A stretch of 52,123 nucleotides of DNA. Source: a virus. Within the stretch, counting starts at the first letter, position 1. Every line of letters starts with the position of its first letter. The stretch covers positions 1 to 52,123 of the IMG/VR virus record IMGVR_UViG_3300033182_000766; one strand, given 5' to 3'. Positions 1,716-52,123 of this stretch are shown here, piece after piece. The notes under the pieces are model-generated. The model did no database searches, was not told where the DNA came from, and saw nothing but the letters and a program-made list of their open reading frames with translations. A program made the translations under genes and the position numbers.

Positions 1716-2297
1716 TTATTTGAATGCAGGACCACATACCCATCCAACTAAACTTGATCGAGAACCTTTTATAATAGGAGTTACTTCGTGTAATATAAAG
1801 CTAGGAAATGCAATTATAGTACCTTGTTTTTTATGAGTCGACTCTCCTTCGCTTCTAGTGTGTATTAAAAAATTGCCACCTTCATAAGTGGAAGGATCGT
1901 CTAATAGGATAGTAAAACTTAATTTTCTATAATGAATATAATCTTTACCTATATCTAAATGTGCTTTATATTTGTCGCCTGTATTGTTGTATTCAGTGTA
2001 TTGCAAAACTTCAATATAATCTAAATCAAAATTCCAAAAAGTTTTATTCATAGAATTTATAGCATCTGTTATTTTTCTATAAATCCATTGGTCGTCTTTT
2101 ACTGCACTATTTAAAAAGGCAACTGTATTTTTTCTAATTTCAGTATTAAGACCAGAATCTATTAATGCCTGTTCTTTGACATGCTTGTTTGCAATTTCTT
2201 TAACTTTTTCACACTCATCTGCTGATAGAAAATTATCTATATATGCCCATGCTTCAAACCCTTTTGTTTCTAGGTACCAAGTTGTTGCTATTGACAT
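1716..2297 (-). CDS. 2OG-Fe(II) oxygenase, prolyl-4-hydroxylase-like
   Basis: This 193-aa protein has the full iron and 2-oxoglutarate set of the dioxygenase superfamily: His113 and Asp115 in the HxD motif (KAHLDIG), distal His170 (FILHEV) and the 2OG-binding Arg180 (KGSRSSLVGW). Length and motif order match the compact prolyl-hydroxylase-like or PKHD-type family. The substrate cannot be read from the sequence. Its position inside a fibre gene cluster suggests hydroxylation of a phage structural protein, though a host protein or small molecule is also possible. It starts with ATG just after the end of the next upstream gene, and lies between the cupredoxin-like fibre and a small structural gene. 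Confidence 0.85.
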   Translation of the reverse strand: MSIATTWYLETKGFEAWAYIDNFLSADECEKVKEIANKHVKEQALIDSGLNTEIRKNTVAFLNSAVKDDQWIYRKITDAINSMNKTFWNFDLDYIEVLQYTEYNNTGDKYKAHLDIGKDYIHYRKLSFTILLDDPSTYEGGNFLIHTRSEGESTHKKQGTIIAFPSFILHEVTPIIKGSRSSLVGWVCGPAFK

Positions 2298-8992: not shown

Positions 8993-11900
8993 TTATTTTA
9001 AGAAATAGTTATATGCTAGTGGTAAGCCTAATACAGTGCCGCTAAACACTATGTTACCTTTAATATTTATCGGATTACCTGTTACTGTTGTAATTAGGTT
9101 GGATCCAATAAACACATCACCTGCTGTTACTGAGTTAACAACTAGTGATGCACCACCGCCACCAATTTGTGCTTCAATGTATGCTTTAACAGCACGTTGG
9201 GTTGGTACAATAGTATCACTGTTTGCAGTAAAGAACGGGTCTGTACTAAATTCAGTAATACTTGCAGAGTTACCACCTAGTGTAACCTCACCTAGTGTAA
9301 GTTCCTGTAGACCTGCAATGTTAAATGCTTCAGCATTCAATGTTGCAACACCAGTTGCTTGCTCAATGCTGAACAAGTCACCTACTCTAAAGTTACCATC
9401 TTGGTCAGTAGCAGTGTAGAACACACGGCCGCCGCCAAAATCACTAGTTTCTTTGGTTTGATCTGGTGTATTAACAGGAGTCCCTGGATAATTAGTATCT
9501 TCAAAGTTACCAGAACCAATATCAAGGAAATCGTGTCCTGTTAAACGTACTTGCGAGAATCTAATATGCATTTCTATTGGATCACTGTCTGGCGGTGCGT
9601 CTGCAATTTCCATATTAGGCGATATTTGTAAGAATGCAGTATAAGAACCATCATTGCTACCGAGGAAAGAAACAGTGTTAACTAGTTTGAAATACTGTCC
9701 TGGTAAACTAGCAAATTCTACGTTAGACCCTGCAACAGGTCGCTCTGTTAATTGTCTTACAGCAATATAATTTCCATTTTGTAAGAAATCAGCATAACCG
9801 TTACTAGTAGTGCTATTAACTGTGGCACTAGAACTTATAAATCCAGAACCTCTATTAACAAAAGTTGGATTTGCTATTGCTCCATTGCCTACTCTAACAT
9901 TGATAATAACATCATTAATGTTATTAGGATCTGTGACTGTAATTTCTGGATAATTTGCATCTAGTGTAGATAACGGATATCCTGACCCTGGTTCGTATAA
10001 TCTAATTTCATATACTTGTTCGTTTGCAACGCCAACTCTAGCTCTAGTAGTAGCACCAATGTTAGCATATCTACCAGCAGTACTTGAAGAATTTGGAAGT
10101 ATTGCAAATATACCTGTTTTATCTGGATTACCAAATGCAACACTATTAAATCCACCAGTAACTGTACCGCCTGATAGAGTATACGCCGTCCAAACTAAAC
10201 CATCCTGTGAGTATTCAATTTGATCAGTATCATCTGATGTAATAACAAATACACCTTGGCCGTATGTTACTTTACGTTCTGTAGCGACTAAGTTAAGTGT
10301 TAATGCATTACCATCTGAGTCTTCTGGGTCGTACCAGTTATCACCGTCTAATGAATACATAACACCGTTGGTCCCGCCGACTACAACAAATCGTCCGTTA
10401 CCCCAAGCGACGTTGCCTGCTACTGTGCCTGGAACTATGCTTGCTGCCGCCCATGTAATACCATCGCTTGAATAAACAATATTAGTAGATCCTGTATCAA
10501 CTGCAACCCATAATCCTTTACCGTAGCAAATATCTGTATAACCTATAGCTGGCAATGCATTAGTAGTTAGTGTCCAGCTTGCGCCACCGTTATCTGAATA
10601 CGCAACATCTCTGTCGTCATCTGAAATAACAACAAATCTGTTATTAACAGTACCAACAACATTACCGTATGCAATATTCTTTTCACCTGCAGAGCTCATT
10701 CCTGCCGGCAATGTAACTCCAGTACTCCAAGTATCTGCATCTGAACCATATATTACGTCGTTAGACCCGTCAGCTACTATAACTACAGCACTTTCGTGAT
10801 ATGTTGTAGATCCATCATCTTGTAATCCTGAAGCAATTGAATTCCAATTACCTGCACTTGGTGCTGGCAATGCTTCTGCTGACCAACTTTGACCATCTAA
10901 GCTAAATGCTCCGTTAGTTCCTGCGCCTACAGCAAGGAATCTACCTTTTCTACCGTATCCGTCAAAATCAAAGTCAATAATAGCACCGGTAGTTGAATTA
11001 ACAGTAGTAACAGTAATAGTAATATCGTGTGTACTGTTCGCACCACCAACACTACTACCATGTATACTTAATGTATCAAGTCTTGAATATCCTGTACCTG
11101 CTGTGTTAATACTTACATAATATTTACTACCATTACGTGTAATATCAAATGTTGCGCCTGTTCCGTCCGACTCTGTGCTTGAAGAAACATTTGTATATTC
11201 AGCTGATGTTTCTACGTACGTTGCATCGTACCAAGTAGTTGTAGCAGGTAAAACTGCTGCACCAGATGCTTTAGGCGGGGCGGTAAATGAAACATATGGT
11301 TCAATTTCATATACCGAAGTTGAGTTAGGCGAAACAAACGGTGTTCCAGGTACTATGTGATCCCATCCTGCTGCGCCGTCTGATTCTCTTACAACTGTTG
11401 CTGCTTTAGAACCTGCATTATATGTATCTACAATACCGTATAATCCTATACCGGCACCACCTACAATTTGTATTCTCATACCAGGGTATGCAGTTGATAA
11501 ATTACCGTCTGTAGCAGCAAGAGTAATACCTGTTGTAGATCCTGCTTGTGCTGTATTGCTTACAACCAAGTATCCGCTACCACCAGCAGCTCCTGAAGAA
11601 TCATTTATTTCGTCAATTCCTCCTTGGAATACAGCCCCGTCTCTAAATTCATCTGCAATAACTACTTCACTAGAGCCCGGACCAAAGAATTCAATTTCTG
11701 CTTCAGTATATTCATTACCAGCATGGCTAAACTCTATGTTTTGTAGTGTATCGGTGTTAGTATTTACTATAGCAATTGTTGCATTATACTGGAATCTATT
11801 ATCAACAATACCTGTTATTGGAGTTTCTTCGACATCAGTACCTTCTGCTACAGAACCGTATCTACCGTAAGAGTTGTTACCGTTTGTAGCACGAATACGT

Positions 11901-14900
11901 CCACCGTTTTCTGCTAAGTAACCAACTGATGAATAGTATGTGAACACTGATACAAGTTCTGCTCTGCCATTATTAGTAACCCAGGCGCCAATACCATCAC
12001 TAATTAACTGAGTGAAGTCATTTGACACCATAGAGTCATACCCACCGTTATGTAACGCACCATCGATCTTTTGTCCTATAGCGCAGTTACCAAAACATGT
12101 ACAACTTTGCATGAATGGTGAACGTGATGTAATCCATGCTTTTTCATCATTTGGTCCCCAACCTGGATCTAGTGATGCATAAGCACCAGCTGTTACACGA
12201 GGAGTACCATATGCGCTGCCGGCATAAGTTAGATAACCGTCTAATCCATCTAATGTCATGTTACGTAATCCTGTTCCATTACGCATTAAGAACATGTTTT
12301 CTTCCTGCGAACCAGTTACAGCATTTACATACGCTTCCGCAGCAATTCGGGTCTTATAACTTGCTGGACGGTATAATGTAACATTATCAGTGTATTCGCG
12401 TTTCCACTGTTGAGCCCAAGTTAAATCATACTTCATAGCGTAAACAAATTCGCCGACATCTCTTGAACATAAGTTAATGTTATAGTCATAATCCATTTCT
12501 AAACGGAACATTTGTGCATATGTATCATCAATGTATCTAGTTGTTTTAATAATAATATCTTCTTTATTATTAAACATTGCTACTTGAGCGTCACGCAATC
12601 CTTGAGTAGCGAACGATACATTTGGATAATTTGTACTTGGTAATCCGCTTAAACTGTCTGCTTGTATTACATCTTCGATTATTTCAATTAATGTTATCGC
12701 TCTATTAGATTCTGTAGATGTACCTGGACCATTTGATGTATCTTGTGATCCGCCGCTTTTTGGAGTCCAACTAGTATTATCTTCAATAATATTATCAATA
12801 AATGATTGCATATAATTATATGCTAGATAAGTTGGTGTTTTTTCTCCTGCCGGCAATTGCGAAACAGCACCTATAAAATAAGATTTTGCAACTTGTATAG
12901 TTGCGCTATTACCACCATATAATATATCATAACATAGCGCATCAACAATATAACCAACGTCTCTTTCGCAAGTTGCTACATCATAAACTAATGAAGGGTA
13001 GTTAAGAGGATCTTGAATCCAAGCAGTAATTTCACCTTGTATAAATGATCTATTTGCTTGCAATTGTAACACAGCATTTTGTTGTCCAGTAGTTGCACCA
13101 GTAGGAACATTAAATGTTATACTGTCTGCTGCTCCAGCACCATTGTTAATAATGTCAACAATTTCTGTAAACGCAGCATTTGAACGTGCTAATGCTGTTG
13201 CATCGTTTCTAACTTCATATAAATTAGCTGCTAAAGATTTAGCGTAGTTAATACCTGCTATAGTTTCTGTTTTTTCGTTGGCAAGTACTTCTGATGCACT
13301 TCCGCCAACGTAAGAACGTCCATTAACTACTTGATTATAATTAGTGTTAAGAACCATGTCATAACTTACACCGTCAATAATATAGCTGGTATCTCTACGA
13401 CATTTTTCATGGTCGTATATAAATCCGCTATTTTCTGTTGTTAGACTTACTGCTGAACCTCCAGGAGTAACGGATACTGTTAATGTTGTACTAGATGTAA
13501 TATCTTTAACATAATAAGTTGTATCTAGTGCTAGTCCAGCATCTACAACAGAGCCGGTGCTATCGTCTAAATCAACGAAACGAATTGCTTGATTTGGTTT
13601 TAACCAGCTAGTATCTGCAACTGTTAATTCATTATTTGATGTATTTGATGATGTTACACCTATACTAAACCAATAGTCCATATACGCATGTACTTCTGCC
13701 GTAATAAAATCTTTGTTTAGCTCTAACTGTCTAATAGCATTATAAACTTCGAAATCATCTACTTGTTCGTTGCCGCCTTCTGCATTTGCAGAGAATATAA
13801 AATCATCGATCCATTCGAATGTATTGTTGACGGCAAGGATCCCTTGTGGATGTGATCCGTAACTTTCAACTATAGATAGAACTTGTTGTCTTGCATATTC
13901 AAATGCTGCAATACTTGCAGTTTTTTGATCACTAATAACATTTGAACTTGGTGCCCTAGCATACGAATAGCCTGCAATCATGCCTGCAAAGTTAGAACCA
14001 GTTGCCCAATCGTATACTGCTGCATCAATAATTAAGCCTACGTCTCTTGAACACTTGGCGTGATTATAATTGAAATCATTATATGTATCACTAATGTATT
14101 GTATTGTATCTAATATTGTTTGCGCTTTGGCAGAATCAACTGCACTCTTTTCGCTTTGTAACGTAGCACTAACATTTAATGATGCAAGATTTGGATAAGT
14201 TACTGCTGGCAAACTAGCAGTATTTCCTGCATCTATAGCATCGGTAATGATAGTTATTTTAGCAGCTAATGCATTTGCTTCTGTAACGCCTGCTGCTGTT
14301 CCGCCTGTATCCTGAGTTTCTGCATTATTAGGAGACTTAGTCCAGGTAGGCGATGTTTGTGCTCGCACAACATAACCTAACACATCTGATAAATGTCCGT
14401 ATGCTGCTGATGTTTGATCAGTTTCGCTTGCAGGATATGCTGTTCCATCAATACCAAAATACGATTCAGCAATACGTGTAGTAGCCATTGTGCCACCGTA
14501 AATTATGTCATATTTCATTGCTTCAACAATAAATCCAACATCTCTTGAACATTTTGCAGTGTCGTAAGAGAAATTATACCAAATACTTGCCGGAGTTGGT
14601 ACTGTTGTAGTATAGTATGTTACTTGATCTTGTATCCACCCAACAATTTCTGCTTGGATAAATGTCTTATTAGCTACTAATTGTGCAAGTGCATCATCTG
14701 CATCAGTCGAAGGAAGTGTGCTTGGTGCAGGATAAGTTAACGTATCTGCGTTTCCGCTGCCGTTTGCAATAATGTCAACAATTTCATTAAATGCAGCATT
14801 ACTACGAGTGATTGCTGTTGAATCACTTAGTTCATCTTCGATAGTATCCCTGGCGTAACGAATAGCACCAATAGTTTGTGTTTTTTCGTTTGCTAAATTA

Positions 14901-17900
14901 TAAGCATTTGTTGGACGTTGATATGCTAATCCGTTAACTATCGCATTATAATTAGTTCCTAATGCAATATCATATGCAACATCGGTTAAAATATTAGTTA
15001 AATCTCTACGACATACTGAACTATCATAACGGAAACTACCAAAGTTTTTACTAATAAAATCAATAGTTCCTGTCTGTATGCTAGTTTTAGCACTATTTAA
15101 TGCAGTCTGTGCAGTATATGCGTCTGAATCTGTAGCAATAGTTGGATATGTAATCGTTGGAGCACTATTGTATCCATCTCTTATAACTGTAATAACATCA
15201 TCAATTAGATTACCAATAACCGTTGACACTCCTGCACTACCACCTGTGCCACTAACTTGAGGAACAGGAACTGTACTAACATCTCCAACAGTTGCAGGAG
15301 TTTGGTACGTTGGATTAACTGTAATGTTTCTACCAGTAGTTTGCATCAATGAACTTAAATATCCCATTGAAGCAATAGTTGCAGTTTTTTCTGCTGTTTC
15401 TATTTGCAATTCATTCGTAGAACCATTATAATACGATTTGCCTGCTTCTACACTCATCCAGTTGCCGCCATATGTTAAGTCGTATGCAACAGCATCCATT
15501 ATTAAACCAACATCACGTAAGCATGTTGTTCTACTGTAATTTAAGTCTGGATATTCTTCATCAAGAAATGCTTCAATTTCTGCTTTAATAAAATCTTTAT
15601 TCAATAAAAATAAATCTCTAGAATAACCGTAATTAGCATCAGTTAAATTGTATGCTGGAGTGTAAGTTGCTTCAACTTTTTGATTTGTTTGATAATCAAT
15701 TTGTCGTTTAATAGTTCTTGCAAGTTTAGAAACTTGCGGTCCTACTACTGTAGTTTCTGCATATGGCCAATCTTGATTTTGTAATTCGGCATTACCTGTT
15801 GTAGCTGGTACTGTTACTCCTGTAACAATATCGTTTACAATTTCTTCGATTCTTTCCACACCTTTATAAGTAATTCTTACATCATTTACAGGAGTTAAAC
15901 TTCCATTAGAAGATTTTCTTGGTAATACATGTGTTGAACGAAGTTCGTCGCCCATTACTGCTGTTTCTGCAGGAACAACTATTGGTAACACTTCGTAGTA
16001 TTTGCCGGTAGAAACTTTAATTAAATTAGTGTTAATTTCTCTTGCAGGTATATCTCTTGAAACACCTGCGGTGAGAGCATCAGTAATAATCCCAACAAGT
16101 TCTGTAGCTCTTGTAAGTACTCCAGCTTCTGCTTCTAAAGACGCATCGGTCCATTGTTCGACAATAGCCGTAGAGTTATCTCCGTTTGTAACTTGATAAT
16201 TAGTTGTAGGATCTGTTTGGGTTAACACCGCTTCGATAACTTCTAGCATGTAGTTATATCCAGCAACATCTTGATCTGCTTGTGTAGTTAATGTTACAGA
16301 TGCTGAATTTTCAAAATACGCTAGTGCTGCTTCTCTTGAGCGAACATTCCCGCCGTGTGTAATATCCCAAATAAGAGCATCAACGATGAGGCCTGTATCT
16401 CTTTCACATAAAGCACTGTTATAACTAAATCCTGACCAAATACCAGAACCTACTCCTATCTGATAATCGATCCATTCTGTAACTTCACGTTGGATAAATC
16501 TACGGTTAAGTTCAAGCAATCTTGCTGCGTTTAAATTTTTAGTTCCTCTGTCGACTTGTTGGCAAGCATATTTTATGCTTCTCCATGGACGATCAATTGA
16601 TTTGCCGTAAATTGGAGCAGGGCTGTCTACTCCGTGTTCTGCAACATAGTAAACATCTTCTGAAGTGCCTAATGATTCCCAAGCTGGTACTCCGTCTGGT
16701 TGTACGGTTAGAATTTGACCGTCAACACCTATTGGCAATCTTGTTGGTGCGCTGCCACTATAGTATACCATATCGCCTGTTGTAGTTAATACAGATTGTT
16801 CTGTACCAACAGCAATGATTGACCAATATTGTCCGCTGTCTGCTAAATCTGGACGAGATCCTTCGTTGCCACCGCCTTGCGGGCCACCTATTGACGAATA
16901 ATCATCGCCTTCTGAAATATGACCTAAAACACAGACATAAGAGTTATCGCCATAACGTACAACATCTCCTTCAAAATATTCTTGGTCGTCAATCCACTCG
17001 CCTCTCCAATTTAAACCTGAAGTAAATTTTTTCCAGTAACTAGCATTCGGTGGTTGTTGATTTTGATGATCTGCCGTACATAGATACGTAAATCCTCCAT
17101 GGCGTACAACGTCGCCAACACGATATTCGTAATCTGCGCTGTCTGCGCCCCAATCTTCTAAAAATTTAAATCCTTCAGAAAATAAATCCCAGTTGGCTGT
17201 ACTTGTGCTAGGTACTTCGCCTGTATGATTAGTTTTAGCAATGTACTGATTACCTCCATACTGAACAATGTCGCCTGGTTGATATTCAGCATAAGCATCC
17301 CATTCGCCTTCGTACTGGAAACCTTCGACAAATTTTTCCCAATTAGCAGAATCAGATTGGAAAATTGTTGTAGATGTATGTGCAGAAGTTGCTATCCATA
17401 AACTGCCGCCATAGCGTACTACGTCATTAATTTTATATCTTGTACTTCCTGCCCAATTTGATTTATATTCAATACCTTGGTTAAAAATATCCCATTTTGC
17501 TAGATCATTTTCTAATCCTAATGCAGTGGTTGCAGCGGACGTATGTATGGTATTACAAACATAAGTTGTTCCTCCATATTTAACTACATCATTAATTAAA
17601 TATTTTGTATTAGTAGTCCAGTTACCTTTCCAATCTAGTCCTTCAACAAATGTATCCCAACTTGCAGCATCTGCTTCTAATCCTAATGCAGTGGTTGCAG
17701 CGGATGTGTGTATGGTGTTACAAATATATAATCTTGCTCCGTAACTTACGATATCATTAAAGATATATCTAGTAGATGTTTGCCACTCACCTTTCCATGT
17801 TTGACCGTCTGATACAAGATTCCATTTAGAAGGTATGATGTTTAGATCTGTAAAGAAATCTGCCGCACTAGTATGTCCAATAACACAAATGTATGTTTTA

Positions 17901-17998
17901 CCTCCTAAGGATATAACATCATCTTGATAGTATACAGTGTCGGCTACCCAAGCACCTTTCCATACTAATCTAATTCTACCTAATTTAAATTCTGCCAT
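8993..17998 (-). CDS. Giant modular virion protein, 3001 aa
   Basis: Domains in order: seven repeats of about 50 residues (1-400; WKGxW..Y..xDVVxYGGxxYxC..H) resembling small carbohydrate-binding modules of the CBM5/12 or chitin-binding type. Then the start of a right-handed beta-helix (about 453, YYVAEHGVDS). Then eight copies of a helical repeat with core C-x-R-D-V-G-x-I-V-D-A between about 520 and 1900. Then the rest of the beta-helix (SLDPGWGPNDEKAW, RSPFMQS). Then an Asp-box propeller (about 2350-2640; S-x-D-G-x-x-W units). The C-terminal domain (about 2640-3001) is shared with the 1820-aa neighbour. A GATAAATA promoter and GGAG site precede the ATG. The role is probably a long fibre or host-binding appendage. 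No enzyme active site is evident. Confidence 0.8.
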   Translation of the reverse strand: MAEFKLGRIRLVWKGAWVADTVYYQDDVISLGGKTYICVIGHTSAADFFTDLNIIPSKWNLVSDGQTWKGEWQTSTRYIFNDIVSYGARLYICNTIHTSAATTALGLEADAASWDTFVEGLDWKGNWTTNTKYLINDVVKYGGTTYVCNTIHTSAATTALGLENDLAKWDIFNQGIEYKSNWAGSTRYKINDVVRYGGSLWIATSAHTSTTIFQSDSANWEKFVEGFQYEGEWDAYAEYQPGDIVQYGGNQYIAKTNHTGEVPSTSTANWDLFSEGFKFLEDWGADSADYEYRVGDVVRHGGFTYLCTADHQNQQPPNASYWKKFTSGLNWRGEWIDDQEYFEGDVVRYGDNSYVCVLGHISEGDDYSSIGGPQGGGNEGSRPDLADSGQYWSIIAVGTEQSVLTTTGDMVYYSGSAPTRLPIGVDGQILTVQPDGVPAWESLGTSEDVYYVAEHGVDSPAPIYGKSIDRPWRSIKYACQQVDRGTKNLNAARLLELNRRFIQREVTEWIDYQIGVGSGIWSGFSYNSALCERDTGLIVDALIWDITHGGNVRSREAALAYFENSASVTLTTQADQDVAGYNYMLEVIEAVLTQTDPTTNYQVTNGDNSTAIVEQWTDASLEAEAGVLTRATELVGIITDALTAGVSRDIPAREINTNLIKVSTGKYYEVLPIVVPAETAVMGDELRSTHVLPRKSSNGSLTPVNDVRITYKGVERIEEIVNDIVTGVTVPATTGNAELQNQDWPYAETTVVGPQVSKLARTIKRQIDYQTNQKVEATYTPAYNLTDANYGYSRDLFLLNKDFIKAEIEAFLDEEYPDLNYSRTTCLRDVGLIMDAVAYDLTYGGNWMSVEAGKSYYNGSTNELQIETAEKTATIASMGYLSSLMQTTGRNITVNPTYQTPATVGDVSTVPVPQVSGTGGSAGVSTVIGNLIDDVITVIRDGYNSAPTITYPTIATDSDAYTAQTALNSAKTSIQTGTIDFISKNFGSFRYDSSVCRRDLTNILTDVAYDIALGTNYNAIVNGLAYQRPTNAYNLANEKTQTIGAIRYARDTIEDELSDSTAITRSNAAFNEIVDIIANGSGNADTLTYPAPSTLPSTDADDALAQLVANKTFIQAEIVGWIQDQVTYYTTTVPTPASIWYNFSYDTAKCSRDVGFIVEAMKYDIIYGGTMATTRIAESYFGIDGTAYPASETDQTSAAYGHLSDVLGYVVRAQTSPTWTKSPNNAETQDTGGTAAGVTEANALAAKITIITDAIDAGNTASLPAVTYPNLASLNVSATLQSEKSAVDSAKAQTILDTIQYISDTYNDFNYNHAKCSRDVGLIIDAAVYDWATGSNFAGMIAGYSYARAPSSNVISDQKTASIAAFEYARQQVLSIVESYGSHPQGILAVNNTFEWIDDFIFSANAEGGNEQVDDFEVYNAIRQLELNKDFITAEVHAYMDYWFSIGVTSSNTSNNELTVADTSWLKPNQAIRFVDLDDSTGSVVDAGLALDTTYYVKDITSSTTLTVSVTPGGSAVSLTTENSGFIYDHEKCRRDTSYIIDGVSYDMVLNTNYNQVVNGRSYVGGSASEVLANEKTETIAGINYAKSLAANLYEVRNDATALARSNAAFTEIVDIINNGAGAADSITFNVPTGATTGQQNAVLQLQANRSFIQGEITAWIQDPLNYPSLVYDVATCERDVGYIVDALCYDILYGGNSATIQVAKSYFIGAVSQLPAGEKTPTYLAYNYMQSFIDNIIEDNTSWTPKSGGSQDTSNGPGTSTESNRAITLIEIIEDVIQADSLSGLPSTNYPNVSFATQGLRDAQVAMFNNKEDIIIKTTRYIDDTYAQMFRLEMDYDYNINLCSRDVGEFVYAMKYDLTWAQQWKREYTDNVTLYRPASYKTRIAAEAYVNAVTGSQEENMFLMRNGTGLRNMTLDGLDGYLTYAGSAYGTPRVTAGAYASLDPGWGPNDEKAWITSRSPFMQSCTCFGNCAIGQKIDGALHNGGYDSMVSNDFTQLISDGIGAWVTNNGRAELVSVFTYYSSVGYLAENGGRIRATNGNNSYGRYGSVAEGTDVEETPITGIVDNRFQYNATIAIVNTNTDTLQNIEFSHAGNEYTEAEIEFFGPGSSEVVIADEFRDGAVFQGGIDEINDSSGAAGGSGYLVVSNTAQAGSTTGITLAATDGNLSTAYPGMRIQIVGGAGIGLYGIVDTYNAGSKAATVVRESDGAAGWDHIVPGTPFVSPNSTSVYEIEPYVSFTAPPKASGAAVLPATTTWYDATYVETSAEYTNVSSSTESDGTGATFDITRNGSKYYVSINTAGTGYSRLDTLSIHGSSVGGANSTHDITITVTTVNSTTGAIIDFDFDGYGRKGRFLAVGAGTNGAFSLDGQSWSAEALPAPSAGNWNSIASGLQDDGSTTYHESAVVIVADGSNDVIYGSDADTWSTGVTLPAGMSSAGEKNIAYGNVVGTVNNRFVVISDDDRDVAYSDNGGASWTLTTNALPAIGYTDICYGKGLWVAVDTGSTNIVYSSDGITWAAASIVPGTVAGNVAWGNGRFVVVGGTNGVMYSLDGDNWYDPEDSDGNALTLNLVATERKVTYGQGVFVITSDDTDQIEYSQDGLVWTAYTLSGGTVTGGFNSVAFGNPDKTGIFAILPNSSSTAGRYANIGATTRARVGVANEQVYEIRLYEPGSGYPLSTLDANYPEITVTDPNNINDVIINVRVGNGAIANPTFVNRGSGFISSSATVNSTTSNGYADFLQNGNYIAVRQLTERPVAGSNVEFASLPGQYFKLVNTVSFLGSNDGSYTAFLQISPNMEIADAPPDSDPIEMHIRFSQVRLTGHDFLDIGSGNFEDTNYPGTPVNTPDQTKETSDFGGGRVFYTATDQDGNFRVGDLFSIEQATGVATLNAEAFNIAGLQELTLGEVTLGGNSASITEFSTDPFFTANSDTIVPTQRAVKAYIEAQIGGGGASLVVNSVTAGDVFIGSNLITTVTGNPINIKGNIVFSGTVLGLPLAYNYFLK
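12300..16450 (-). repeat. Eight copies of a Cys-Arg-Asp helical repeat
   Basis: Within the 3001-aa protein the core C-x-R-D-V-G-x-I-V-D-A-x-x-Y-D occurs near residues 529, 826, 995, 1149, 1317, 1532, 1677 and 1844, spaced about 145-300 residues. Each is followed by a motif with Gly-Gly-Asn (copies 1, 2, 4, 7) or Thr-Asn-Tyr-Asn/Ser-Asn-Phe (3, 5, 6). The paralogue of 1820 aa has a single, Cys-less copy at the same place. Confidence 0.8.
17511..17728. repeat. Tandem near-identical coding repeat in the 3001-aa gene
   Basis: The 53 bases at 17511-17563 recur at 17676-17728, 165 bases (55 codons) apart, with about four differences. They encode the CNTIHTSAATTALGLE part of N-terminal repeats 2 and 3, showing a recent duplication of one whole repeat. 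Confidence 0.75.
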
Positions 17999-44504: not shown

Positions 44505-46904
44505 TTATAAGCCTTTAAACACATTTCCGCCCATGCCTTTTTGAGTGCGTAATTGCTTTTCTGCAACGCTAATGTGTTTGGCAGATAGGCTAGTTAATTC
44601 TTTAAGACTACTATTTAACGCTTCTGCCATTTCATTTCCACTAGACTGATTATTATTTGTAGAGATTTGGTTTATTTTCGAAGATAATGACGTTATTGCT
44701 TGTTCTAAACTAGCTGTATTCAATGTTTCTGGCTTTGTAGGTGGTTTTACATTTTGCATTGCACTAAAAACACTTTTGTTCAAACTTTCAAATTGTGCAG
44801 GTTGCATAGATTGCATAGTAGAAGATACACCTTTAGCCATATTTTCTAGTTGTGCAGATGTAATTACGCCTTCTTTGCCGTGTAATGTTGCTTTAGTTCC
44901 TTTGCCAAAGTCTTCAATTAGAGACCCAACTGCTCCAAGACTTCCTGTTTGTCTTTTAACTTCTTTGCCTATAGACGTATCTTCTTTAAGACTCTTTACA
45001 GCATTAGCAATATTTTCATCAACGCTAGTCATTTTTGCTTGTTTAACAAATGCTGAGATTTGTTCTTCGTTTCTTTCTGAACCTTGACGCTGAGCTCTTT
45101 TGTACAATTCTTCTATTGCTTGAGTATTTCCTGATTCAATTAATGCTGCAACTTTTTCTGGAACTGATTCTTCTCCTGGCATTTGTTGTTTTATTAAATC
45201 TAAAAACTCTTTCTTTACTGAATCTGTAAATCCTTTTGCTAATACTTGTCCTGCTTCTACGTTTCCAGTTTCGTCTGTAAGTTCTTTTATCATACCTAAT
45301 GACGTTGCTATATCGTTATAATCTTGATCAGATAATTCAACTTTTTTCGTTTCTCTTTTTTTAACTGGTTGAATAGCAGCTTTGCTTAGTGATCCAGGAG
45401 CCCACTGTTGCGCTGTTTCGATCGTTTCTTTGAGTTGTCTGTCAACTTCGTCTAAATTTTCTTTTTTATTAAAATTTTCTATACCTTGAGCAAAACTTTC
45501 TAACTCAGTTGCAAGATGTCGTATTGCACCGTTTGGTCCAATTAAAGAATCGTTAATTATATTTCCTAAGTTTCTTAATGCAAGTTCACCTTGAACAGTT
45601 GCATGAGTTAGTTGATCACCAGCATTAGTTTGTTTGTTATCTATATCAGCTATTGCTTTCGCATATGCTATTCGTCTTTCTGCATCAGTTTGTGCGCCGT
45701 CACTGGCGGATGTTAAAGCATCTGTAAAATATTGCGTGTCTTGAACAAGTTGAGCTCTAGCTTGAGTGTATTCATTATGTGCTCCTAATGCTGCTGTTGC
45801 TAAAAATTCTTCAGACCGTGCTCTTTTGTCAATAGCCATTCCTACGTCTATTGCACTTTGTTGTAATGCAGGAAGTCCTGAGTTTTTATCTTTAATCATA
45901 GCAACTTGCGCTTGAATCTCTTTCATTACTCCAGGGCCAAGTGCTTGTGCTGCTGCTACTGCTTCTTTACTTGCAATATTTCCTTTTGTGTACAATTCTT
46001 CAAGCACTAATTTTGCTGCGTCCCCGCCTGGTTTAATGTTAATAAGTGCTTGCTTTAATTTTTCAGCTGCGGCTGTATTTCCTCGCATTTCTTCAAGACG
46101 TGTTCTTGCTTGAACGTTGCCTTGGCGTAGTTTATCGTCAATTTCTTTTTGTAATTCTTTTCGACTAACACCGGTTAGTTTAGCCATTTTATCTTGTTCT
46201 TTTGCAAGAGCGAAAGCAGATTGATAAGCATTTTCAGCTGCTGTTTTATCCATTGCATAACGACGTCTGTTTATGCTCATATTCTGTAACAACATATCGT
46301 TAACTTCTTCAAAAGAATACCCCATAGTTAATAATTGTGAACCAAGTTTTCCTTCAAACATTTTTGCACTTTGTTCTGAAAACTTTTTAGCTCCCTTTGT
46401 TACAGATCCTCCCATAGCAGTTAATGCTTCGGAGTTTTGGCTTACTATACCTGCAAATTCGTCAAGACTCAATCTAGATTTTGCAGCCATATTAGACATA
46501 TCCATGATGCTGTTATTAAACCCGGCGCCAACATCTGATAACGATCTCCAAGTGTCAACTCCTGCTTCAGCAATTCGTAACCCTTCTTGCGCAACAGATC
46601 CTACACCTTGTACAAGTGCACCTACTCCTGGTATTTCTTTTCCTATACTAGTTAATTCACTTGTAACGTCTGATAATCTTACGCTGCTAGACGATAAACC
46701 TTTAGTTAAATTATATGCAGAACCTGCAACAGAACCAAGGCTATCGCCTATAGCTTTACTTCTAGTATTAATATATTGATCGTCTTTGGTTAATTTTGGT
46801 TTTCCGCCAGTATAATCAATTTTTAACTTGATACCGTCTTCTTTAAACATCTTTTCAAGTTTTTTTAGGGTTTCTGCCGTTATATCTTCTTCATTAGTAG
46901 CCAA
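44505..46904 (-). CDS. Probable tail tape measure protein (gp29-like)
   Basis: This 799-aa protein is almost entirely helical and Ala/Lys/Glu/Gln-rich. It has a less polar, Gly/Ser/Ala-rich stretch at about 45-125 (GDSLGSVAGSAYNLTKGL, IGKEIPGVGALVQGVGSVAQ). It lies back to back with a gp26-like gene carrying a chaperone-type frameshift, the classic neighbour of a tape measure. The start is TTG, supported by GGAG eight bases upstream. At about 1.5 angstrom per residue a fully helical ruler of this length would set a tail near 120 nm; T4 gp29 has 590 residues. The call rests on composition, size and context, not on a recognised motif. Confidence 0.55.
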   Translation of the reverse strand: MATNEEDITAETLKKLEKMFKEDGIKLKIDYTGGKPKLTKDDQYINTRSKAIGDSLGSVAGSAYNLTKGLSSSSVRLSDVTSELTSIGKEIPGVGALVQGVGSVAQEGLRIAEAGVDTWRSLSDVGAGFNNSIMDMSNMAAKSRLSLDEFAGIVSQNSEALTAMGGSVTKGAKKFSEQSAKMFEGKLGSQLLTMGYSFEEVNDMLLQNMSINRRRYAMDKTAAENAYQSAFALAKEQDKMAKLTGVSRKELQKEIDDKLRQGNVQARTRLEEMRGNTAAAEKLKQALINIKPGGDAAKLVLEELYTKGNIASKEAVAAAQALGPGVMKEIQAQVAMIKDKNSGLPALQQSAIDVGMAIDKRARSEEFLATAALGAHNEYTQARAQLVQDTQYFTDALTSASDGAQTDAERRIAYAKAIADIDNKQTNAGDQLTHATVQGELALRNLGNIINDSLIGPNGAIRHLATELESFAQGIENFNKKENLDEVDRQLKETIETAQQWAPGSLSKAAIQPVKKRETKKVELSDQDYNDIATSLGMIKELTDETGNVEAGQVLAKGFTDSVKKEFLDLIKQQMPGEESVPEKVAALIESGNTQAIEELYKRAQRQGSERNEEQISAFVKQAKMTSVDENIANAVKSLKEDTSIGKEVKRQTGSLGAVGSLIEDFGKGTKATLHGKEGVITSAQLENMAKGVSSTMQSMQPAQFESLNKSVFSAMQNVKPPTKPETLNTASLEQAITSLSSKINQISTNNNQSSGNEMAEALNSSLKELTSLSAKHISVAEKQLRTQKGMGGNVFKGL

Positions 46905-46964: not shown

Positions 46965-47789
46965 ATGGCAAATCCTTTACAGAAATATTATCGTCAACCT
47001 AAAATTTACTTGTCATTGCCTTCAAAAGGAAAATATTATCCGCCAGGTTGTATACAAGGCGATCCAGAAAATTTGCCAGTGTTTGGAATGACAGCAATGG
47101 ATGAGATCATACTAAAAACTCCTGATGCACTTTTTTCAGGCGAGTCAGTAGTATCTATAATCAAAAGTTGCATACCAAATATTTTAGATCCATGGAAAAT
47201 TCCTCAAACTGACGTTGATTCTATATTAATTGCTATTAGGACTGCAACGTATGGTCAAAAACTTAATACTACGTTTACTTGTACATCTTGCGGCGAATCA
47301 AACAATTTCGATTTAAGTTTATCAGGTGTATTAGATTATTTTTCTACTTTAGAATTTGAATCTAGTTTAGTTGTAGGACCGTTATTAATTAATTTACGTC
47401 CATTAACATATAAAGAAGTTACTAATATAAATCTAAAAAGTTATGAATATCGTCGACGACTTGTTAATATAGAAGATTTACCAGATAAAGAAAAAGATGC
47501 AATTATTGATCAAGCATATAAAAACCTTGCTTCTTTAACGATCGAAGCATTCCAACTATCAATACAAAGTGTTGAAGTTGACGACGAAGTAGTCGATAGC
47601 GCAAAAGATATTCAAGAATGGTTAAAAAACTCTGATAAAGAATTTATTGACGAAATTAAAAAACATACAGAGTCAGTAAAAAAGATTTGGAGTATACAAC
47701 CACAAAAAGCTATCTGTGCAGAATGCGAAACTGAAAATACTGTAATGTTTAATATCGATAATTCTGATTTTTTCGGTCTGAGGTCCTGA
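46965..47789 (+). CDS. gp26: gp26-like tail assembly/baseplate protein (short frame)
   Basis: This 274-aa protein resembles the T4 gp26-type baseplate hub or tail assembly family of marine phages: the N-terminus YRQPKIYLSLPSKGKYYPPG, then GMTAMDEIILKTPDALFSGE and VVSIIKSCIPNILDPWKI, typical of the T4_baseplate family. Two CxxC pairs (Cys106/109 and Cys251/254) look like a zinc ribbon. It lies divergently beside the probable tape measure gene. At codons 269-270 (Phe-Phe) the message carries T TTT TTC, after which a -1 shift opens a 77-residue extension. Unshifted translation ends five codons later. Together this matches tail assembly chaperone genes of other phages. Confidence 0.75.
   Translation: MANPLQKYYRQPKIYLSLPSKGKYYPPGCIQGDPENLPVFGMTAMDEIILKTPDALFSGESVVSIIKSCIPNILDPWKIPQTDVDSILIAIRTATYGQKLNTTFTCTSCGESNNFDLSLSGVLDYFSTLEFESSLVVGPLLINLRPLTYKEVTNINLKSYEYRRRLVNIEDLPDKEKDAIIDQAYKNLASLTIEAFQLSIQSVEVDDEVVDSAKDIQEWLKNSDKEFIDEIKKHTESVKKIWSIQPQKAICAECETENTVMFNIDNSDFFGLRS
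47768..47774 (+). promoter_or_regulatory. Slippery heptamer T TTT TTC for -1 frameshifting
   Basis: In the gp26 frame the bases are GAT TTT TTC GGT, so the heptamer T TTT TTC has the X XXY YYZ form and both tRNAs can re-pair one base back. The -1 frame is closed by TGA at 47765-47767 and is open from exactly the heptamer to 48007. Confidence 0.75.
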
Positions 47790-48007
47790 CCTTAGACGAG
47801 TCTGACTTGTTGAAGCTAGTCGACGAGTATGAAAATGATACAAAACAAATTAAAGATGAAGTTTTTAGAATCGCTTGGCATATGCGAGGCGGTGTTCAGT
47901 CTGAAGATTTGTTTTGGCGGTATTCAGTAGAAGATAGAGAAATTTTATCTCGTATTATTAAAGATAATATTGAAACTACAAATAAAACTGGTCTTCCGTT
48001 ACTTTAA
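47768..48007 (+). CDS. -1 frame extension fused to gp26 by frameshifting (gpGT-like)
   Basis: After the slip the frame continues RSEVLTLDESD and then 66 residues ending in NKTGLPLL, so the fusion would be 347 aa (270 shared plus 77). The extension is helical with the aromatic, basic segment FRIAWHMRGGVQSEDLFW, then a heptad-like helix SVEDREILSRIIKDNIE. Nothing supports independent initiation: the only possible early start is a TTG at 47807 without a ribosome site, and the first in-frame ATG would leave 39 residues. In lambda-type tails the equivalent extension contacts the tape measure. I do not recognise a known family, though a T4 gp51 counterpart is conceivable. Confidence 0.65.
   Translation, partial: FFRSEVLTLDESDLLKLVDEYENDTKQIKDEVFRIAWHMRGGVQSEDLFWRYSVEDREILSRIIKDNIETTNKTGLPLL
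47776..47797 (+). promoter_or_regulatory. Hairpin immediately 3' of the slippery heptamer
   Basis: GTCTGAGGTC (47776-47785) pairs with GACCTTAGAC (47788-47797): ten pairs including one G-U, around a two-base loop (four if the closing pair opens). It begins one base after the heptamer and holds the unshifted stop TGA. The short spacer means the base of the stem would be open on the ribosome. Confidence 0.7.
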
Positions 48008-49599
48008 ACAGATTCTATTTTAGACATTAAAGTATTAATGTCATCGTCAGACAATTTAGCAAGCTGGCTTTGAAGAGCTTCGCTATTAAAAATTACTTCT
48101 ATATTGTCAAAATCTTCTTCAGTATAACCTAAATCTATTAGATATTGTTCTGTTCCTTGCGCTATTTCAGGATAAGTTTCATAAAAGCGTCCACTTTCAT
48201 CTAGAGAAGCCATTTGTCGAAATCCTTCTTCAATAGCACTGCGACTGCTTTCTTTTATTTCGTCCATGTCTAAACGTATCGGTGGCGCAATACCTTCTTC
48301 GCGTTCAAATTGTTGCATTTGCTTTTGAATTTCGATAACCTTATCTTGATATTTTTCGATGAAGTCCCAAGGTAAGATGGTTATTACACCTGCTATAGCT
48401 CCAGCACCGATACCAATTCCTGCACCAGCAAATATCTTAATACCTAAGTCGTTAAGTAATGCTACGATTGCTCTACATTTTGGACTTCTTTTACATGCTA
48501 CCTTAGGACTTGGCACTACAGAACCTGGTCTAGGTAATCTTTTTCTAACTATATTAAGTTTAGCATGCTGATAAAACATTGCACACGCTGCTGTATTAGC
48601 CAGCACCGCCAACGACATTGCTATAATTGCAGCATCTATTAAACTAGCAGTTGCATTTGCCCTAATAGTATCTTGTTTTCCACTAGTTCTATGATCATGT
48701 AATTGATAAAATACACCAATCTTTGCTGATGCAATCCAAAAAGATGCATATATTGCCGCAGCGGCACCACCAAGTGCTCCTACATGAGCAGCGTGTTTAC
48801 CTAACCATTTAGGTAAAGCCAAAGCCCATTTAATTAATGATTTTTCGCCTGCTATTTTTAATTTAGGTTCTATTATTCTATATTGCCCTTTTAACATAGA
48901 AATTTTGCTTTGAATTTTTTCAATTCTTAATATTAAACCTTTGTCTTTTTCTTTTACAGCATGAACGTGTAACTGTTTTAAAACTTCTTCGATCTCTCCT
49001 TTAAAAGTATGTTTTCGCCAAGAAGTTTCGTATTCAATTTCTACATATTGATAAAACATTTTCCATTTGTCTGAACCAGTGTCTGCTAATCTACGTGCAA
49101 ATTTTTCATCGCTGCCAAACCCGCCGGATCTTGTTTCATGTTTAATAATTCTTACTGGACGTTCTTCGTAACGAGCCGTCTGTTTTATCGTAGGATTCAG
49201 TAACTGAAAATATTGTACGTTAGCAAATCTAACAATATCTTTAAAAATTGTTTGTTGTATTTGTGTTATAGTTTTAGGTGAAGACAGTTCAGCATGCGTA
49301 TGAGAATAATCAAGTGCTGACATTATTTCATCTGGTAATATTACTTTATATCTTATATCATTACCAACAATAATTTCTTCGATCATATCCTTTTCAATGT
49401 TTTTTGGCAGAACTTTTATAACTCGTTTATATACATCAGAATATTCATTTTCAAGCCACTTTAGATATTTTTTAATTTTATTCCAAGAAGAAGGATCTTT
49501 AGCACCAGGAAATGAAGGAAGCACCTCAGGTGGCTTTCTCGGATTAGCATGTGCTTGTGTGTCAAAACCTGCTTCTAAAATAAAATCACGATATCGCAT
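48004..49599 (-). CDS. Unrecognised protein with three hydrophobic segments, 531 aa
   Basis: I do not recognise this protein. Residues 1-250 are soluble and charged, starting MRYRDFILEAGFDTQAHANP, and include helix-rich segments. Hydrophobic segments follow at about 271-298 (HVGALGGAAAAIYASFWIAS), 318-343 (ASLIDAAIIAMSLAVLANTA) and 384-410 (GIKIFAGAGIGIGAGAIAGV), long enough to span a membrane. An acidic C-terminal region (about 430-531) ends in short helices. The stop overlaps the end of the convergent frameshift extension by four bases. CATAAATA stands upstream, but no ribosome site is seen. It could be an internal virion protein delivered into the host membrane; this is inference. Confidence 0.6.
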   Translation of the reverse strand: MRYRDFILEAGFDTQAHANPRKPPEVLPSFPGAKDPSSWNKIKKYLKWLENEYSDVYKRVIKVLPKNIEKDMIEEIIVGNDIRYKVILPDEIMSALDYSHTHAELSSPKTITQIQQTIFKDIVRFANVQYFQLLNPTIKQTARYEERPVRIIKHETRSGGFGSDEKFARRLADTGSDKWKMFYQYVEIEYETSWRKHTFKGEIEEVLKQLHVHAVKEKDKGLILRIEKIQSKISMLKGQYRIIEPKLKIAGEKSLIKWALALPKWLGKHAAHVGALGGAAAAIYASFWIASAKIGVFYQLHDHRTSGKQDTIRANATASLIDAAIIAMSLAVLANTAACAMFYQHAKLNIVRKRLPRPGSVVPSPKVACKRSPKCRAIVALLNDLGIKIFAGAGIGIGAGAIAGVITILPWDFIEKYQDKVIEIQKQMQQFEREEGIAPPIRLDMDEIKESSRSAIEEGFRQMASLDESGRFYETYPEIAQGTEQYLIDLGYTEEDFDNIEVIFNSEALQSQLAKLSDDDINTLMSKIESV

Positions 49600-50130: not shown

Positions 50131-50580
50131 TTAAGTGTTGGATTGTTTTGCCTTGATGGTGTGTTCTAGTAATGCCTTGCGTAATTTGTCGCTACCGCCA
50201 ACCCTACAGTTAATAATACCATTATAGTATTCATCTGTTTCTAATACACGGCGGTCAAACTGTTCTCTTGCCTCAATGTATGACATTTCTGCTCTGCTTT
50301 TACACAGATATAATATTTCTCTTGTGAAGTTTTCTGGGCCTAATGCGTGGACATCTGCTTGTAGCCTGTCTGAAGAACCCCAATAGTCCTTCCAATCGCT
50401 TTCTTTATGACTGCGCCTCTTATTCTTTTTGCCTTTTAGAGGTGGTTTAGTAACTTTAAACTTTGCTAGTTTTTTGCCTATATATTTTTGCCCAGTAGTA
50501 AGATTTGTAATGAGGTAAACAAAGCCTTCATATTCGTCAGGTATTGTTTCAATTGCTTCCCCATTATAAGTCCACTGCAT
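50131..50580 (-). CDS. GIY-YIG family nuclease
   Basis: This 149-aa protein has the GIY-YIG core: GFVYLITNLTTG (Tyr22) then QKYIGKK (Tyr33-Ile34-Gly35), a basic linker, SDWKDYWGSSDRL with an Arg near residue 72, and the helix SRAEMSYIEAREQF carrying Glu103 and Glu106, one of which would be the metal-binding acid. No separate DNA-binding domain is visible, and the linker KGKKNKRRSHKE is highly basic. Small GIY-YIG proteins in T4-like phages act as homing or host-DNA-cutting enzymes. It lies close to a second nuclease gene and gp46, which favours a mobile homing role. Confidence 0.8.
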   Translation of the reverse strand: MQWTYNGEAIETIPDEYEGFVYLITNLTTGQKYIGKKLAKFKVTKPPLKGKKNKRRSHKESDWKDYWGSSDRLQADVHALGPENFTREILYLCKSRAEMSYIEAREQFDRRVLETDEYYNGIINCRVGGSDKLRKALLEHTIKAKQSNT

Positions 50581-50811: not shown

Positions 50812-51552
50812 TCAATGTTTCTGTTTGCAGTTTTCACCGTGCCATCTTTTATAGTTTCCTAATGTACAGGTTATACCGCAATATTCACAAGTTTGTTTTC
50901 CTTCTTCTCGCGCTCGTCGCATTTTTTCCTTGACATCTTTATTGCGCTTCTTGCCTCTGTTCTTTAATCCAATAGCCTTCATTAGTTCGGAATCTCGTTT
51001 CTTACCTAATTTATTTTGTCTAATTTTTTCTCTAGTAGCCTGACTACGCACTTTGCCTGTAGTTTCTTTTTTTCTACGTTCTCGCATCTCGGCAGCATAT
51101 TCTTCGCCAAAAATCTCTTCGTAGGTTTTACCCTTTTTCTTTTCTGACATTCTCTGTTTTGTTTCTTCCGTATGTTTCTTACCATAGAACGGATTATTTT
51201 CTTTTTTCATCCTTTTTGAATGTGCCTTTGCATGCTTAATTCGTGCTTCTTCATATTCTTCTTCTGTAAATGTTAAGTCTCTTAGTTGGTTATGACTTTG
51301 TTTATTCATCATTCTCCAGACAGCATTCCACATTTTGCCGTTCACAGTACCGGTAGTAAATTTTGTTAATAACTTATGACATCTAAAATGATCTATAGCA
51401 CTTAGATATACAATATTTTCTTTCTTATCGCTACCGCCTAAACTTTTAGGTATAATATGATGTTTTTCACAATACTGAGTTTTAATATCTGTAATTTTAT
51501 TGTTTTCTATAATGTCATAATATTCTTTTAGGTAATCGTTTTGTTCAAACAT
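50812..51552 (-). CDS. HNH homing endonuclease with NUMOD3-like motifs
   Basis: This 246-aa protein begins with a Cys-containing HNH motif (YCEKHHIIPKSLGGSDKKEN, then IDHFRCHKLL). Next come NUMOD3-like DNA-binding helices (NPFYGKKHTEETKQRMSEKK and REKIRQNKLGKKRDSELMKA) and a C-terminal Cys/His finger (CEYCGITCTLGNYKRWHGEN, then Cys). This order (catalytic, NUMOD3, finger) is that of free-standing phage homing endonucleases. It lies between gp46 and the GIY-YIG gene. I see no intron or interruption in the visible part of gp46, so it appears to be intergenic. Confidence 0.88.
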   Translation of the reverse strand: MFEQNDYLKEYYDIIENNKITDIKTQYCEKHHIIPKSLGGSDKKENIVYLSAIDHFRCHKLLTKFTTGTVNGKMWNAVWRMMNKQSHNQLRDLTFTEEEYEEARIKHAKAHSKRMKKENNPFYGKKHTEETKQRMSEKKKGKTYEEIFGEEYAAEMRERRKKETTGKVRSQATREKIRQNKLGKKRDSELMKAIGLKNRGKKRNKDVKEKMRRAREEGKQTCEYCGITCTLGNYKRWHGENCKQKH

Positions 51553-51576: not shown

Positions 51577-52123
51577 TTATACGATACCGCTAATTTCTAG
51601 ATCCGACTGATATTCAGTGAAACCATTTTCCTTTACAACTTTAAGAATAGTGTTTACTCGTCCTACTAATTCGTCTTTATGTGAAATCAAAAATACATTT
51701 TTGTCACGGTCTCTGCCTATTTTCTTTAATACACTCAGTGCGTTTTCAACGCCTGCTGTGTCCATGCCTGAATCAATGAGCTCGTCAATGAATAATAAGT
51801 TAATGTTTTGATATAAACTTTCCCATACATCGCGGAAAGCAAATGATAAGCCTAAGATGAGCCTGTTACGTTCTCCTCTTGATAAGTTGTCAAAGTCTAA
51901 ATCTTGTCCAAGCTGAGTAATCTCAACAGACAAATCATTTAGGAATAATACTTGATGCGGTAAGCCTAAGCGGTCAAGATAATAAGTGAGCCTATTGTTT
52001 AAGTATGCTAAATTTTGTTCGATGATTTTTTTACGAATGAATGAATCTTTGTTCGTAAGAAGTTTCAAAAGAAACTCTTGATGATCTTTAAGACTATTCA
52101 GTTCATTAATAGGTGTCCAATCA
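51577..52123 (-). CDS. gp46: Recombination endonuclease subunit gp46 (C-terminal part)
   Basis: The right edge holds the C-terminal lobe of the SbcC/Rad50-type ATPase gp46. The ABC signature is LSRGERNRLILGLSFAF, followed by Walker B (INLLFIDE), the D-loop (LIDSGMD) and the switch His (VFLISHKDEL). The frame stays open to base 52123 (the residues entering from the edge are DWTPINELNSLKDHQEFLL), so the start, Walker A and most of the coiled coil lie outside the window. The TTG at 52068 is internal. gp46 with gp47 resects DNA ends during T4-type recombination-dependent replication. Confidence 0.92.
   Translation of the reverse strand, partial: DWTPINELNSLKDHQEFLLKLLTNKDSFIRKKIIEQNLAYLNNRLTYYLDRLGLPHQVLFLNDLSVEITQLGQDLDFDNLSRGERNRLILGLSFAFRDVWESLYQNINLLFIDELIDSGMDTAGVENALSVLKKIGRDRDKNVFLISHKDELVGRVNTILKVVKENGFTEYQSDLEISGIV

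Follow-up and report, generated by a model that had tools for sequence, protein, structure and literature searches.

In a T4-related myovirus, a single gene of the gp26 type very probably gives rise to two tail assembly chaperones (TACs) by -1 ribosomal frameshifting of the G/GT type. The DNA analysed, referred to below as the window, is the IMG/VR record IMGVR_UViG_3300033182_000766 (52,123 bases), a fragment of an incomplete genome. The gene carries a canonical slippery heptamer close to its 3' end, followed by a coding extension in the -1 frame, and both features are conserved across a broad set of phages. The shorter predicted product corresponds to T4 gp26 and the longer one, which shares its N domain, to T4 gp51.

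Genes for a T4-like portal (PF07230, E=1.5e-108), a major head protein and a head protease were found close to the TAC gene, which identifies the window as a fragment of a T4-related myovirus. The closest cultured relatives found were jumbo phages. The TAC gene lies on the strand opposite to its neighbours (Table 1). The large ORF between the portal and TAC genes had been taken for a probable tape measure gene. No convincing tape-measure match was found for it in Pfam or PHROGs, and the sole hint in this direction is an old note calling its positional counterpart in RaK2 similar to such a protein. In CBB, GAP32 and PA5oct the ORF at the corresponding position carries a virion structural protein annotation (from ESI-MS/MS in PA5oct). 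Near the end of the window, a GIY-YIG endonuclease gene and an HNH-looking ORF adjoin a gp46/SbcC-like gene, a possible homing endonuclease cluster.

Table 1. Features of the predicted tail assembly chaperone locus, together with other ORFs noted in the window.
Feature	Position	Strand	Remarks
Predicted short tail assembly chaperone (TAC-N), gp26-like ORF	46965-47789	+	274 aa; ATG start
TGA closing the -1 frame directly upstream of the heptamer	47765-47767	+	Direct reading
Slippery heptamer T TTT TTC	47768-47774	+	Direct reading
-1 extension, predicted C-terminal domain of the 347-aa TAC-NC	47768-48007	+	79 aa (FFRSEVLT...TGLPLL) and TAA; open in -1
Zero-frame stop TGA, end of TAC-N	47787-47789	+	Direct reading
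Hairpin, 9 pairs, 4-nt loop	47776-47784 with 47789-47797	+	One base 3' of the heptamer; possible stimulator
Second predicted stem, 9 pairs	47805-47828	+	
ORF between portal and TAC genes	44505-46904	-	799 aa; no clear family
ORF converging on the TAC gene	48004-49599	-	531 aa; family unknown; overlaps the TAC-NC stop by 4 bases
ORF with strong tail fibre family matches	8993-17998	-	3001 aa; phrog_9851, E=1e-189
ORF among tail genes	1716-2297	-	193 aa; 2OG-Fe(II) oxygenase match (phrog_61, E=4e-31)
SegE-like GIY-YIG endonuclease	50131-50580	-	PF19835, E=1.4e-34
HNH-looking ORF	50812-51552	-	Motif judged by eye
gp46/SbcC-like gene, C-terminal part	51577-52122		Adjoins the two preceding ORFs

At the junction the zero frame reads ...AAT TCT GAT TTT TTC GGT CTG AGG TCC TGA, and the heptamer lies in the phase X XXY YYZ. 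The -1 frame is shut by a TGA immediately before the heptamer and is open from the heptamer to the TAA at 48005-48007. Because of this upstream stop and of the zero-frame stop downstream, a productive -1 shift is limited to positions 47768-47789, and T TTT TTC is the one canonical heptamer inside this overlap. As possible starts, the first part of the -1 frame offers nothing but two TTG codons, at 47807 and 47810 (13-14 codons in), and no convincing ribosome site accompanies them. The initial annotation had claimed the heptamer at the correct phase, a -1 frame closed just before it and open afterwards, a downstream frame with TTG starts only and no ATG or ribosome site, and products of 274 and 347 aa; all of this was reproduced by direct reading and translation. 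The rarity of the heptamer was dropped as evidence in its own right, since TTTTTTC occurs 19 times in the window against 19.4 occurrences expected.

A hairpin of ten pairs had also been described one base after the heptamer. Its position was correct and its folding real (z about -4), but the stem has nine pairs closing a 4-nt loop; with ten pairs the loop would shrink to 2 nt. For a 68-nt segment including both stems, RNAfold gave -24.5 kcal/mol (z=-4.0 against shuffles), and for 60 nt a z of -4.5 was obtained. Downstream folding was unremarkable in most relatives, which lack a comparable structure, and the hairpin was therefore not retained as a defining feature. Given this lack of conservation it may serve, at most, as a local enhancer of frameshifting in the window.

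Evidence for the slip site comes from its conservation. The sequences compared comprised a first set of 37 (the window included) and 58 from a second, profile-based scan; eight contigs were common to both, giving 87 distinct sequences. The heptamer and the -1 overlap, which the initial annotation had proposed to look for in homologues, were observed at the junction in every one of them (87/87): each has T TTT TTN in the correct phase and the extension in the -1 frame. The final base of the motif was C in 84 sequences, T in 2 and G in 1. Among the 24 loci of the first IMG/VR scan, whose N parts are 36-59% identical, every locus with both parts has the -1 extension and T TTT TTC, and in the second scan the heptamer (58/58) and the -1 extension (58/58) were found throughout. 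After clustering at 50% identity, all 20 representatives keep the site. Based on codon usage of these genes, the probability that synonymous choice would place T TTT before the second Phe was roughly estimated, to an order of magnitude, as 10^-14 for the first 37 sequences and as ~10^-7 for the 20 representatives, the latter taken as independent.

Among named phages, T TTT TTC and the -1 extension were identified in the jumbo phages Atu_ph07, Phosso, Paride, PA5oct, CBB, GAP32, BF, Vibrio 2.275, SCTP-2, 121Q, RaK2, XbC2, Munch and Hallingskeid. The cyanophage S-CAM8, Delftia PhiW-14 and the T4-like Vibrio phage phi-Grn1 have the same heptamer and extension. The junction is T TTT TTT in the jumbo phages RAS14 and XacN1, and T TTT TTG in Rhizobium RL2RES. 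Among homologues, the zero-frame stop follows the heptamer at 3-42 nt, and the position of the upstream -1 stop differs too. Amino-acid conservation of the extension nevertheless begins exactly at FF(R) while both flanking stops move, and FF(R) thus marks the shift point. In many homologues the extension has neither an ATG nor a ribosome site of its own, and many have no ATG, GTG or TTG within its first 20 codons. On both counts, slippery site and start signals, the checks on homologues set by the initial annotation came out in favour of its reading. The same scheme, with a short and a long protein sharing the N domain, is predicted in all homologues.

The Ackermannviridae phages Mooltan and Zahir were left out of the 87 because they have no T TTT TTN site. 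A PF12322 gene with a gp51-like -1 extension is present in both (Mooltan, L046 2153-2956; Zahir, L048 2441-3244), and the junction reads ATT TTC ATT TAA; either another shift site (e.g., U UUC) or reinitiation could operate there. A single PF12322 gene was counted in Mooltan.

Sequence matches place the 274-aa product among T4 gp26-type proteins. It matched PF12322 (T4_baseplate) in Pfam (E=9.7e-14) and phrog_150 (baseplate hub) in PHROGs (E=5.7e-20), and its AlphaFold2 model (pLDDT 83) matched predicted T4-like baseplate hub assembly proteins in Foldseek (E=1e-21, TM ~0.88). Against solved structures, Foldseek returned no significant match, VIA-align gave middling and mostly helical matches, and no experimental TAC fold was recognised. 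The -1 extension is predicted to be helical (pLDDT 73) and is 47-70% identical within the window's clade. In single-sequence HMM searches of Pfam and PHROGs the window's own extension matched no significant family, gp51 included; the extension profile of its clade gave a weak match to gp51-type extensions (E=2e-4, probability 46%). The assignment of the 274/347-aa pair as tail assembly chaperones, already made in the initial annotation, is supported indirectly, through the putative T4 counterparts gp26 (short) and gp51 (long, with the N domain and an aligned extension).

Both gp26 and gp51 of T4 belong to PF12322. gp51 matches phrog_150 from end to end; it has the same N domain as gp26 followed by an extension that aligns to the -1 product. 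The -1 extensions of two phages matched phrog_634, the gp51 family, with E=9e-30 for S-CAM8 and E=8e-22 for phi-Grn1. T4 gp26 terminates in KEFFELL, and T4 gp51 runs past the same point into its extension. The end codons of T4 gp26 (GAG TTC TTT GAG) contain no slip site, and the -1 frame closes at once; the heptamer is also absent from the gp26 ends of Melin, KP15, PSTRCR_127 and RB49. One PF12322 gene was found in each of 10 complete frameshift-type genomes (10/10) and two in T4, Melin and KP15, with identical counts for phrog_150 across the same genomes. The window has one such gene, as counted by protein search in a 52-kb fragment of an incomplete genome. On a tree built from short, divergent proteins, whose root and deep forks are weakly resolved, the gp51 proteins group together (99/94), and the Straboviridae member phi-Grn1, which has one gene, branches next to but outside the gp26/gp51 pair (83/90, moderate support).

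Sequence comparison and gene counts indicate that T4 gp26 and gp51 are the two-gene equivalent of the frameshifted pair. The simplest history would start from a frameshifting ancestor, the gene having been duplicated later within the T4 core. We consider it reasonably probable that across the T4 superfamily (jumbo phages, cyanophages and some Straboviridae) both chaperones come from one gp26-type gene whose T TTT TTN site is invariant, and that T4 and its close kin are derived by a duplication that produced gp26 and gp51, the slip site having decayed.

Other routes to the same arrangement were considered. The downstream frame could be a small gene in its own right, its translation beginning by reinitiation or at a start of its own after the TAC-N stop: GenBank annotates distinct hypothetical ORFs at the extension in some relatives, and a -1 ATG lies near the TAC-N stop in Atu_ph07, Phosso, 121Q and phi-Grn1. 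However, upstream of the conserved part a usable start is missing from the window and from many relatives, and a separate gene leaves the invariant heptamer and the FFR conservation upstream of those ATGs unexplained. T4 gp51, moreover, holds both parts in one continuous protein, and we regard a separate gene as very unlikely. The six-T run raises another route, in which RNA polymerase adds one U and the extension is thereby brought in frame, yielding the same fusion. Transcriptional slippage usually requires runs longer than six T, and the run is nearly always exactly six T followed by C, phased for two Phe codons; we judge this route as unlikely as a separate gene. Two adjacent frames encoding parts of one gp51-like protein could, finally, reflect one long gene split by a sequencing error or decayed into a pseudogene; with the same arrangement and heptamer in 87 distinct sequences, finished isolate genomes among them, the chance of this is negligible.

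With -1 ribosomal frameshifting, most ribosomes would stay in the zero frame and produce TAC-N. On a minority of ribosomes decoding TTT TTC, both tRNA-Phe would slip back by one base onto TTT TTT; these ribosomes would continue in the -1 frame and produce TAC-NC, with its predicted helical C-terminal domain. In lambda, the short chaperone coats the tape measure and the long one brings tail tube subunits (reviewed in PMC5009743). If the pair works like lambda gpG/gpGT, the tape measure protein would be coated by TAC-N and tail tube subunits would be recruited by the rarer TAC-NC via its extra domain; neither would be expected to remain in the virion.

The jumbo phages Atu_ph07, Phosso, CBB, GAP32, RaK2, 121Q and PA5oct have a homologous gene with an identical heptamer and a -1 extension, and in most of them a gene for a structural or hypothetical protein divergently adjoins the homologue. 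These homologues are 23-33% identical to the window protein, and their extension is annotated as a separate hypothetical ORF or is unannotated. In the jumbo phage and T4-like records examined, the C-terminal domain (~60-80 aa) of a tail-building protein is either overlooked or listed as a hypothetical gene of its own. A literature search for frameshifting in jumbo-phage gp26 genes found no reports.

Tail assembly chaperone genes of T4-like phages were reportedly identified in 2022 by Vladimirov, Gautam and Davidson, in a paper (Virology 566:9-15) whose title proposes that they are produced by a non-frameshifting mechanism. According to a summary of that work in the PRFect paper (PMC10885494), some T4-like phages pair a short gene with a long, fused one. 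A passage of the phage Adele paper of 2025 credits poly-T slippery sequences in T4-like TAC-N genes to Vladimirov et al., 2022 (PMC12846349), so that frameshifting in some T4-like TAC genes has probably been published already. The suggestion in the initial annotation that it was undescribed for T4-like gp26 genes is therefore probably wrong. Novelty may lie in the particular clade, in how far the site extends over jumbo phages and IMG/VR contigs, and in the pattern of one gene versus two. The Adele paper also describes, in its account of the TAC locus of Vandenendeviridae/Andersonviridae, a TAC-N/TAC-NC pair for which a -1 shift at a conserved poly-T tract is proposed; unlike the window, that locus has the invariant motif GTTTTT and belongs to a different phage group (PMC12846349).

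According to a review of 2016, long-tailed phages conserve the G-T frameshift, with T4 as the exception (PMC5009743). A history leading from frameshifting to duplication, if true, would explain why T4 is listed as the exception, and would turn that exception into a testable evolutionary switch between one gene with a frameshift and two genes. The window shares its N-domain family with T4 gp26 and gp51, gp51 carries a C-terminal extension that aligns with the -1 extension, and the FF at the shift point is also where T4 gp26 comes to its end; T4 differs in having two separate genes on opposite strands, with no slip site in gp26. Among the closest known systems is the tail assembly chaperone frameshift of the lambda gpG/gpGT type (the family of Xu et al., 2004), from which the window differs in that its N domain belongs to the T4 gp26 family (PF12322), the heptamer is T TTT TTC and the gene lies on the strand opposite to its neighbours.
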